A stretch of 10,720 bases of DNA from Holosporales bacterium (GTDB lineage Bacteria > Pseudomonadota > Alphaproteobacteria > RUG11792), in the NCBI GenBank assembly GCA_031260085.1, contig JAIRKP010000061.1:1-10720 (forward strand). The letters are read 5' to 3'. Each line of letters opens with the position of its first letter. Position 1 is the first letter of the stretch. Shown in pieces: positions 3,008 to 6,382 of this stretch. The notes under the pieces are model-generated. The model did not search any database and was not told the DNA's origin. It was given only the letters and a program-made list of their open reading frames with translations. The position numbers were made by a program, and so were the translations under genes.

Positions 3008-3042
3008 GTGTATATTGGAAAATTCCGATTTTCGATATACAC
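3008..3042. repeat. Long hairpin at the left edge of hairpin cluster 1
   Basis: Outer arms GTGTATAT (3008-3015) and ATATACAC (3035-3042) pair perfectly, and inner arms GAAAAT (3018-3023) and ATTTTC (3028-3033) pair around the loop TCCG. The two stems are joined by a small internal asymmetry (TG against G). It resembles the long hairpins at 3240-3274 and 3362-3392, which also have an outer stem, a small mismatch and an inner AT-rich stem. There is no T-tract, so it is not a typical terminator. Confidence 0.7.
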
Positions 3043-3132
3043 CTACATGGACGCGATTAACCAAAGTTTCTTTGGGTAAAATCTTCGATTTTGCAATAAA
3101 TCTTTGATTTATTATAATCGCGCCTGCATGGA
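3042..3132. repeat. Imperfect 10-bp direct repeat flanking cloverleaf 1
   Basis: CCTACATGGA (3042-3051) and CCTGCATGGA (3123-3132) differ at one base and immediately flank the cloverleaf-forming element at 3052-3122. The placement is that of a target-site duplication. The second cloverleaf is likewise flanked by similar octamers, CCCCGTGG and CCCCGCGG. Origin by insertion is an inference. Confidence 0.45.
3052..3122. repeat. Cloverleaf-forming element, copy 1
   Basis: An outer stem CGCGATTA (3052-3059) with TAATCGCG (3115-3122) encloses three hairpins, each with a 3-base loop: CCAAAG-TTT-CTTTGG (3061-3075), AAAATC-TTC-GATTTT (3078-3092) and AATAAATC-TTT-GATTTATT (3095-3113). Only one or two bases lie between stems. 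The same plan occurs in inverted order at 3281-3353. Because both strands can fold, it could act as a DNA cruciform with a four-way junction or as an RNA structure if transcribed. It is not a tRNA: arm sizes, loop sizes and conserved bases do not match. Confidence 0.75.
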
Positions 3133-3161
3133 GATGTTCGTTTATGTTTAACACTCTAAAA

Positions 3162-3177
3162 TGTTCCACGTGGAACA
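3162..3177. other. parS: parS-type centromere site
   Basis: TGTTCCACGTGGAACA is a perfect 16-bp palindrome. It differs from the widespread chromosomal ParB-binding consensus TGTTTCACGTGAAACA only by one symmetrical pair of changes, a variant found in natural parS sites. ParB binds such sites near the replication origin to segregate the chromosome (established for the family). No parA, parB, gidA or gidB gene is in the window, and I see no cluster of DnaA boxes. It sits between the two inverted hairpin clusters, in non-coding DNA. A spurious minus-strand frame beginning with residues FHVEH arises from reading through it. Confidence 0.8.
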
Positions 3178-3225
3178 ATTGAAATTTTATTACCTCAAAG
3201 TGCTCGAAAATTATATCAAAATATT

Positions 3226-3274
3226 ACCAATTCTTGGTTGCGGTGACAGAAAATCTCCGATTTTCTATCACCGC
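3226..3274. repeat. Two adjacent hairpins opening hairpin cluster 2
   Basis: A small hairpin ACCAA-TTC-TTGGT (3226-3238) is followed after one base by a long one. The latter has CGGTGA (3241-3246) pairing with TCACCG (3268-3273), a C-A mismatch, then AGAAAATC (3248-3255) pairing with GATTTTCT (3259-3266) around the loop TCC. An extra G-C pair closes 3240 with 3274. No T-tract follows, so a terminator is unlikely. Confidence 0.7.
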
Positions 3275-3280
3275 CCCGTG

Positions 3281-3353
3281 GCGCGATTATGCTAAATCTT
3301 TGATTTAGCGCAAAATCGAAGATTTTGCCCGAAGTTTCTTCGGATAATCGCGC
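3281..3353. repeat. Cloverleaf-forming element, copy 2, perfect four-way junction
   Basis: A perfect 10-bp outer stem, GCGCGATTAT (3281-3290) with ATAATCGCGC (3344-3353), encloses three abutting hairpins: GCTAAATC-TTT-GATTTAGC (3291-3309), GCAAAATC-GAA-GATTTTGC (3310-3328) and CCGAAG-TTT-CTTCGG (3329-3343). Every base of the 73 is either paired or in one of three 3-base loops; no base at the junction is unpaired. Its arms appear in reverse order to copy 1, so the two are inverted copies. Differences between them are paired on both sides of each stem (for example CCGAAG/CTTCGG against CCAAAG/CTTTGG). Confidence 0.8.
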
Positions 3354-3361
3354 CCCCGCGG

Positions 3362-3392
3362 TCGTTTCTCAAATCGTAGATTTGCGAAACGA
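3362..3392. repeat. Long hairpin at the right edge of hairpin cluster 2
   Basis: TCGTTTC (3362-3368) pairs with GAAACGA (3386-3392), then a T-C mismatch, then CAAATC (3370-3375) pairs with GATTTG (3379-3384) around the loop GTA. The plan, with outer stem, single mismatch and inner stem closing on ATC-N3-GAT, is the same as in the hairpin at 3240-3274. No T-tract follows. Confidence 0.7.
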
Positions 3393-3774: not shown

Positions 3775-3814
3775 AGTCTGTCAAGGAGGAGAACGAAGTG
3801 ATCCTTGACAGACT
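3775..3814 (+). repeat. Repeat A, copy 1
   Basis: A 40-bp palindromic unit with perfect 13-bp arms, AGTCTGTCAAGGA and TCCTTGACAGACT, around a 14-base centre GGAGAACGAAGTGA. An exact reverse-complement copy is at 5904-5943 and a direct copy, differing only at its last base, is at 10669-10708. It is followed after four bases by repeat B, forming an A-B composite. No ORF for a transposase is present, so it resembles a REP- or MITE-like non-autonomous repeat. Confidence 0.9.
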
Positions 3815-3818
3815 ATTG

Positions 3819-3856
3819 GCGCGAGTATGGTATAATTTATTTTACCATACTCGCGC
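3819..3856 (+). repeat. Repeat B, copy 1
   Basis: Perfect 14-bp arms GCGCGAGTATGGTA (3819-3832) and TACCATACTCGCGC (3843-3856) surround an AT-only 10-base centre. The same arms recur at 5862-5900, in damaged form at 6351-6382, and truncated by the window edge at 10713. The stem is GC-rich at its base but lacks a T-tract, so it is not a standard terminator. Confidence 0.9.
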
Positions 3857-5861: not shown

Positions 5862-5900
5862 GGCGCGAGTATGGTATAGATATTATACCATACTCGCGCC
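5862..5900 (-). repeat. Repeat B, copy 2
   Basis: Perfect 16-bp arms GCGCGAGTATGGTATA (5863-5878) and TATACCATACTCGCGC (5884-5899) enclose a 5-base centre GATAT, with one more G-C pair outside (5862 with 5900). It starts 37 bases after the rne stop. Compared with copy 1 the arms are the same but the centre differs in length and sequence. Confidence 0.9.
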
Positions 5901-5903
5901 TAT

Positions 5904-5943
5904 AGTCTGTCAAGGATCACTTCGTTCTCCTCCTTGACAGACT
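5904..5943 (-). repeat. Repeat A, copy 2, inverted
   Basis: An exact reverse complement of the 40-bp unit at 3775-3814. With repeat B copy 2 it forms a composite in the opposite orientation to copy 1, so rne lies between two inverted composites. In the plus-strand direction its centre contains TCTCCTCCTT, which includes the anti-Shine-Dalgarno core. Confidence 0.9.
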
Positions 5944-6330
5944 GGTCTCATGTAGTCTCTCGGCCGAGCAGAGTATTCAAGTCAGTTTCACCCAGAGGTT
6001 CCAAATTCGAGAGCTCCCCCGTCCAAGGTGCGCAAGAAATTTGGGAGGTAATACGCAGTCTTACCCTCATCAGAGGTCCAGGCCCACATGGACCCCGGAT
6101 TCCAAGCTCTGAGATCAGCCTTAGCTACAAGCTTTGTCGTGGCTGTAGGCGGCAAGACAGTCAATGCGGTAATTCCCTTGGGAAATAGGTCGATAACCCT
6201 CCAGGCTTCGACAAGATGCTCTAAGCCCAGGTACACCACCCCAGCAAAAGAGGTATAAATTGCCCCATGTGATCAAAGTTACTTTGGAAGGGCACGTATT
6301 CGGCCCAATTAGCGACGGAGTAGCTTTATA
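5944..6330 (-). pseudogene. GC-rich relic of an unrecognised gene
   Basis: This roughly 390-base stretch is about 50% G+C by eye, unlike its AT-rich neighbours. The most protein-like frame is on the minus strand, 6239 down to 5988 (83 codons, with GLEHLVEAWRVIDLFPKG, LRAWNPGSMWAWTSDEG and YYLPNFLRTLDGGALEFG). It has no good start, and a stop lies just upstream. A different minus-strand frame with protein-like content (NWAEYVPFQSNFDHMGQF) ends at 6221 and overlaps it, as if a frameshift near 6230 broke one gene. A plus-strand frame (5934-6188) is also open but begins inside repeat A. It lies between repeat B copies 2 and 3. Product unknown; strand and coding status are inferred. Confidence 0.3.
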
Positions 6331-6350
6331 TTTTCAAAATACCCACGCGA

Positions 6351-6382
6351 GCGCGAGTATGGCATAGATATTATACTCGCGC
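6351..6382. repeat. Repeat B, copy 3, damaged
   Basis: The left arm GCGCGAGTATGG is kept, but aligned with copy 2 there is one T-to-C change and a 5-base loss (ACCAT) from the right arm, leaving ten paired bases (6351-6360 with 6373-6382). No repeat A is next to it. It sits between the GC-rich relic and the NhaD-like gene. Confidence 0.8.

Follow-up and report, generated by a model that had tools for sequence, protein, structure and literature searches.

A four-way-junction palindrome as one exchangeable core of a lineage-restricted repeat mosaic in a Holosporales bacterium

Rickettsia palindromic elements are palindromic repeats of reduced alphaproteobacteria that are often located inside reading frames. 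They are mentioned in PMC3733652. REPINs, BIMEs and GTAG REPs are extragenic palindromic mosaics with compensatory stem changes, and are often restricted to one lineage (PMC3116915, PMC3733652). In the organelles of Volvox carteri, short intergenic palindromes with loops of usually 3-5 nt are nested into larger, sometimes tRNA-like folds and occur in many copies (PMC2670323), and hairpin elements of sponge mitochondria show a few complementary stem substitutions, variable loops, and double or triple hairpins (PMC2800124). Matched arms with inverted loops are also produced by template-switch mutation at short inverted repeats (PMC8794818, PMC8604942). The repeat described here, referred to as the cloverleaf, shares these features apart from the location inside reading frames.

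The window analysed, a stretch of 10,720 nucleotides, belongs to the assembly of a Holosporales bacterium (613 kb in 118 contigs, 64% complete). A perfect four-way junction with stems of 10, 8, 8 and 6 bp and 3-base loops had been predicted at 3281-3353, and this geometry was confirmed: the four helices comprise 32 pairs, all Watson-Crick, with zero unpaired bases at the junction (Table 1). The outer stem (3281-3290/3344-3353) can be extended by one pair (3280/3354). As single-stranded DNA, positions 3276-3358 fold at -29.7 kcal/mol compared with a shuffle mean of -9.8 (z -9.0), and none of 200 shuffles folded as well. A scan for abutting branched palindromes (abutting arms, outer stem of at least 6, inner stems of at least 5) returned three in a 103-kb sample of the bacterium's own genome and none in five first-order shuffles; a larger sample of the same genome contained nine distinct examples, all of the cloverleaf family, and 119 loci of other genomes (1.02 Mb, including a sample of the congener) contained none. 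Across 19 of 20 aligned copies, the outer stem continues outside the 73 bases to a moderate extent (39 of 76 cells paired versus 30.4 with swapped flanks, p 0.009). The extended stem was considered as a palindromic target site, a candidate that was set aside at this moderate level of pairing.

Table 1. Positions of the cloverleaf, its arms and the neighbouring repeat hairpins in the window.
Feature	Position	Strand	Basis
Cloverleaf core, 10-bp outer stem around three abutting hairpins	3281..3353	+	read from sequence, pair check, DNA fold
Arm 1, GCTAAATC-TTT-GATTTAGC, 8 bp, loop TTT	3291..3309	+	
Arm 2, GCAAAATC-GAA-GATTTTGC, 8 bp, loop GAA	3310..3328	+	
Arm 3, CCGAAG-TTT-CTTCGG, 6 bp, loop TTT	3329..3343	+	
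Second core copy, diverged and inverted; 29 Watson-Crick pairs, 1 G.T, 2 unpaired	3051..3123	-	covariance model, pair check
Flanking hairpin adjoining second copy	3008..3042	.	read from sequence; paired in fold of locus L023
Flanking hairpin, AAATCnnnGATTT tip, one side of core	3240..3274	.	fold and tip search
Flanking hairpin, AAATCnnnGATTT tip, other side of core	3362..3392	.	fold and tip search
Partner hairpin (label SGTC) AGTCTGTCAAGG...CCTTGACAGACT of the simple-core family	3775..3814	-	
Simple hairpin core, family A (GCGCGAGTATGGTA...TACCATACTCGCGC)	3819..3856	-	
Family A hairpin core	5862..5900	+	
SGTC partner hairpin	5904..5943	+	
Shortened family A hairpin	6350..6382	+	

The second copy in the window had likewise been predicted, as an inverted version in which stem differences are paired and loops are flipped. 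This copy is real, and the named paired changes and flipped loops are present, but two unpaired positions (T.T where the outer stem meets the junction, and C.A in arm 2) and one G.T had been overlooked. Both copies share a single gap, flanked by divergent genes for shikimate kinase and RNase E/G. The RNase E/G gene lacks an accompanying aroK in the congener contig examined, and that gene was not seen at the examined loci of named relatives that carry aroK-recR-obg; thus, the insertion site is not comparable with relatives. Among the matches listed, the closest to the Obg protein of the window is from Holosporales bacterium Rs511_bin80 (76%), and the next listed are from other Holosporales or alphaproteobacterial bins, one of them titled roe deer rectum. 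Judged by these record titles, the host is likely a gut-associated alphaproteobacterium with a small genome.

Two further features of the window lie apart from the cloverleaf itself. Between the two copies, at 3162-3177, is the palindrome TGTTCCACGTGGAACA, which we take to resemble the chromosome-partitioning site parS. Across 34 genomes, exact copies number 22 in the own genome, six in the congener, 10 in G012, 134 in G010, two in G046 and zero in the other 29. This dispersed parS-like palindrome seems to merit separate study, above all for its 134 copies in G010. Further along, a GC-rich island at 5945-6340 (about 0.5, versus 0.25-0.32 further out) adjoins a family A hairpin unit; its two short overlapping ORFs had no Pfam match, and the island may be foreign DNA or what is left of a gene.

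A covariance model built from the 20 aligned copies located the cloverleaf at at least 30 distinct places in its own genome (E<=1e-3; 50 rows, both strands counted once), a lower bound given that 141 of 869 candidates were scored. Of the 30, 22 span the full model with at least 62 bits, and eight are partial or decayed. BLAST recovers most of these places and adds a few fragments. The element is therefore a dispersed repeat with further copies, as had been anticipated. Copies in relatives, for which the same search had been proposed, did not follow. The congener (G001) gave no copy by covariance model (with at most 141 candidates scored) or by BLAST, and 33 other genomes gave one weak covariance match (G016, E 3.4e-4) at a depth of at most 141 candidates per genome, so that these absences are not exhaustive. 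The G016 match was rejected as a cloverleaf, since its sequence, when read, looks unrelated. BLAST with the cloverleaf returned no match in 58 other genomes, congener included, an exact 28-base pattern of arms 2 and 3 had no match in the named genomes or viral contigs, and no plasmid match was obtained at E 1e-5. The original prediction had counted a lack of conservation in close relatives, and unpaired stem changes there, against itself; both were encountered in part, with no copy found in the congener and with unpaired changes among the copies, including two in the second copy of the window.

Only one of 28 examined copies overlaps an ORF of at least 100 aa, and one further copy has no ORF in its short stretch. 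Among the 14 copies with ORFs on both sides, five are divergent (two of these being the window pair in its single gap), seven are tandem and two are convergent. The cloverleaf is best read as a non-coding, lineage-restricted repeat, with nearly all examined copies intergenic. Several copies lie at or near contig ends (C18:13, C31:4 and the end of C49) in an assembly of 118 contigs and 64% completeness, and the pattern might on that account be put down to repeats collapsed or misjoined in a fragmented metagenome bin. Such an artefact is extremely improbable, given that most full copies are inside contigs and have differing flanks and differing point changes.

The cloverleaf does not stand alone. 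Copies read with their flanks are mostly bordered by other hairpins, and the outer stem mostly has GGGG before it and CCCC after it. One flanking module, recognised by AGATATCCAATTGGAGTCACAG, was read at 16 distinct places, where its neighbour is the cloverleaf in seven cases, a family A core in one (C56), an unrelated core in one (C88), a contig end in one and no recognised core in six. Beside this module the cloverleaf is oriented arm-3-first in four of seven cases and arm-1-first in three. At L146:8748-8792 the same type of site holds a single hairpin in which the outer stem carries an arm-1-like tip; arms 2 and 3 are missing. Furthermore, arms 1 and 2 both carry the tip AAATCnnnGATTT, as do flanking hairpins with differing lower stems that are still largely paired. 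The palindrome mosaic has several exchangeable cores, of which the cloverleaf is one, and cores stand in either orientation beside a given module.

The recurrence of one tip raises the question of a dispersed protein-binding site, in which AAATC-N3-GATTT would be a putative palindromic operator or nucleoid-protein site carried in hairpins. This tip occurs six times in the window compared with 0.07 expected, and at 46 distinct places in the sampled sequence of the own genome (a sample enriched by the inclusion of element loci) compared with one in a 159-kb sample of the congener. The repeat cluster at 3079-3383 contains all six tips of the window, and cloverleaf arms or other hairpins contain most of the 46, so the copy number of the tip follows that of the repeat. 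A role as a binding site is accordingly very unlikely to account for the element.

The simple-core family of the mosaic, family A (GCGCGAGTATGGTA...TACCATACTCGCGC), has 66 copies in the sampled sequence, of which 50 are followed within a few bases by the partner hairpin AGTCTGTCAAGG...CCTTGACAGACT. Relative to the partner, the family A loop is forward in 33 of these 50 units, symmetric in 14 and flipped in three. This two-hairpin unit is also present in the congener, where its stem base differs but is again largely self-complementary (five loci and further hairpins of the sample), in keeping with repeat-wide turnover. G018, a more distant relative, has the partner hairpin, with six of 15 matches 97-100% identical over 34-39 bases. 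At its locus L191 (G018:C84; 500-539 and 2868-2905) identity of the partner hairpin between the two genera reaches 100%, compared with 56% for their RNase E/G proteins. Such identity across genera, as read from the sequences, is suggestive of either strong constraint or a recent exchange. A count of perfect hairpins (stem of at least 12, loop of 3-15) gave 40 in 103 kb of the own genome, 14 in 159 kb of the congener and five in 203 kb of loci of other relatives, an excess of about fourfold over the congener; limiting loops to 3-8 gave a tenfold excess, which is overstated because the family A loops of the congener are longer. TTGACA and TATAAT were noted by eye in the family A and partner unit at a spacing of about 20, and a promoter reading was considered. 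In partner-anchored copies, single-sided changes on the anchored strand comprise 17 A.C and four G.T, an asymmetry that could be due to mutation bias or to selection on the opposite strand.

Two-hairpin units of kept polarity are what a strict transposase-mobilised miniature element might look like, whether REPIN or IS200/IS605-derived, with a Y1 tyrosine transposase moving hairpins in trans. Partial Y1_Tnp matches were found in the own genome and in G018 and G001, the two relatives in which the partner hairpin or a counterpart of it occurs, and REPINs too show compensatory changes and have been drawn with a 'clover' fold (PMC3116915). Against this, all four Y1_Tnp matches of the own genome are partial, the stretch on C1 has many stops in all frames, and the 64%-complete assembly yielded no full Y1 domain, no target duplication and no Y1_Tnp match at a cloverleaf place. 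A hairpin scan of three Y1 fragment sites placed a family A hairpin near one of them, and none of the three coincides with a cloverleaf place. Y1 was found in 15 of 34 genomes searched, and in 12 of these 15 neither family A nor its partner was matched; the distribution of Y1 genes across the family is scattered and does not follow that of the repeat. Full-length Y1 domains are present in the relatives G011, G013 and G016. Inspection by eye also revealed no GTAG tetranucleotide shared in the flanks of 29 and 20 copies, nor a GTAG end motif beside the stems. Because the GTAG tag was not seen and an intact associated transposase was not found, the cloverleaf was not filed as a REPIN, and strict mobilisation of this kind is considered rather unlikely. 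The broken IS200-like Y1 fragments themselves are at L131:2638-2838 (G000:C1), L032 and L034, the C1 fragment lying about 370 bases from a family A hairpin. A relative genome, G006, has 89 Y1_Tnp matches, many with internal stops, and represents a large, largely decayed IS200-like burst.

The variation of stems and loops among copies is the evidence on which the origin of the fold turns. Of the 639 stem cells in the 20 aligned cloverleaf copies, standard pairs occupy 614 and the other 25 are unpaired, so that pairing is not inviolate. The claimed excess of paired stem changes was borne out: seven of 32 pairs have changed on both sides, compared with a shuffle mean of 2.2, and none of 500 shuffles reached this value (the shuffles ignore kinship among copies). 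Paired double changes occupy 15 of the 639 cells, eight of them at one pair. The 66 family A copies contain 15 cells with complementary double changes where 0.2-0.6 would be expected from change rates; nine of these are transversions, and the 15 cells reduce to eight distinct types, some shared by descent, with five cells representing one change. In the 50 partner-anchored copies there are five complementary double changes versus 28 single-sided ones. Many paired changes are shared by descent, and independent events are therefore few.

The flipping of loops as units, also foreseen, is evident in the distances from the consensus. Loop 3 (n=20) lies at distance 0 from TTT in nine copies, 1 in six, 2 in none and 3 in five, four of which are exactly AAA; loop 2 (n=18) lies at distance 0 in eight copies, 1 in nine, 2 in none and 3 in one, which is exactly TTC. 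Loops 2 and 3 switch to their reverse complements as units without intermediates, unlike what point mutation produces. Three of the four AAA copies may share descent, while in the subfamily of the L007 copy that copy alone has loop 3 flipped. Loop 1 has no single consensus; T-n-T is found mostly in one subfamily and A-n-A in the other, with exceptions.

The strong fold (z -9.0) and the excess of paired changes would also be explained by a functional structured RNA, or by an element that stabilises or terminates mRNA, with the fold under selection. When the outermost pair is included, single-sided G.T changes in the cloverleaf exceed A.C changes by 13 to six. Seven of the G.T changes come from that pair, and outside it the counts are equal, at six and six. 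RNA selection would predict more G.T than A.C, and for this reason the fold is taken to be mainly a repair product. Furthermore, no Rfam match lies at the cloverleaf, a scan of the host intergenic region detected no T-run terminator, convergent genes are not preferred (two of the 14 copies with ORFs on both sides), no cloverleaf was found in the congener, and cores are swapped beside one module. Maintenance of the fold as RNA is distinctly unlikely, and covariation in dispersed repeats should be treated with caution, as it is not proof of functional RNA. The loop flips and the transversion-type paired changes point to template-switch repair over selection on the fold.

The preferred explanation is that the cloverleaf belongs to a lineage-restricted, non-coding mosaic palindrome in which template switching re-matches stems and flips loops and cores, and whose modules spread as transposase hairpin substrates or by recombination, with no host function needed; as a whole it is held to be somewhat better than an even proposition. 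During replication, DNA polymerase would switch templates between the arms of an inverted repeat, which would re-match the stems and invert loops and cores, and the perfect fold would be mainly a mutational product of this arm homogenisation and spacer inversion. Modules might have spread as single-stranded hairpin substrates of a transposase that has since decayed or is missing from the assembly, or through recombination among repeats, and the element would be a selfish or neutral non-coding repeat. Template switching between short inverted repeats both matches arms and inverts the spacer according to PMC8604942, which also cites bacterial data as showing that it favours transversions, and compensatory changes with inverted loops are attributed to it in hairpins (PMC8794818). 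This one process could account for the paired transversions, the jumps of loops and the two orientations of cores within their outer stem. The cloverleaf has arms matched by paired changes, with unpaired ones as well, and spacers inverted as units. Against template switching, its arms measure 6-8 bp and in yeast spacer inversions were seen only with arms over 9 bp (PMC8604942), while loop inversions tied to compensatory changes were extremely rare in a study of rRNA (PMC8794818). Decayed copies are common, and the unpaired stem cells (25/639) also count against this explanation.

Junction resolution by itself gives hairpin ends, not inversions, and for homologous recombination 6-8 bp is a short arm length. 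The flips are nevertheless reverse complements at the level of both loop and core, and could be ascribed to arm recombination, cruciform processing or a site-specific recombinase instead of template switching; in chloroplast DNA, homologous recombination has been held responsible for small inversions between short inverted repeats (PMC12928735). With template switching, a single process both inverts the spacer and matches the arms (PMC8604942, PMC8794818), and such a separate origin of the flips is very improbable, slightly more so than the protein-binding reading. Cruciform resolution, to which the flips had originally been assigned, is not needed, given that template switching is published as yielding arm homogenisation together with spacer inversion (PMC8604942). 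Between the two causes first offered for the persistence of the fold, templated repair is favoured by the loop flips and paired transversions, and selection less so in view of the equal G.T and A.C counts (6 vs 6). Templated repair is thus favoured over both cruciform resolution and selection. A broader formulation, put forward tentatively and regarded as doubtful, is that of a hierarchical palindrome that evolves as a structure: the fold would persist while hairpins are gained and lost at junctions, each level (loop or whole core) would invert alone, and the stem sequence would turn over across the whole repeat family, its pairing restored by template switching. The number of copies is enough to separate selection on the fold from template-switch repair, two causes that are usually confounded for perfect stems.

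Compared with the described systems, no named family matches, in line with the original prediction: Rfam searched over the window at E<=1 gave two matches, both away from the cloverleaf and far below gathering scores, and no description of the family was found in the titles and abstract starts of the literature searched. The cloverleaf differs from Rickettsia palindromic elements in that almost all copies are intergenic (1/28 overlapping an ORF). It resembles REPINs in being a short palindrome with many extragenic copies (at least 30 places, 1/28 overlapping an ORF), but lacks a visible GTAG and a detected intact RAYT, and its core closes into a four-way junction that bears three arms with triloops. 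The sponge elements are mitochondrial, and the available text describes single or tandem hairpins, none enclosed in an outer stem (PMC2800124). Template switching is a mutation process, not a repeat family, and in yeast its spacer inversions needed longer arms (PMC8604942). The nested palindromes, short loops and intergenic position of the Volvox repeats are all found in the cloverleaf, a likeness of form only; the Volvox repeats belong to an organelle, not a bacterium, and exchangeable cores or loop flips are not described in the accessible part of that report (PMC2670323). On this comparison, the element is closest in form to the nested palindromes of Volvox and to REPIN/BIME mosaics, and is, in its form, a bacterial equivalent of the palindromes nested in algal and sponge organelle DNA.
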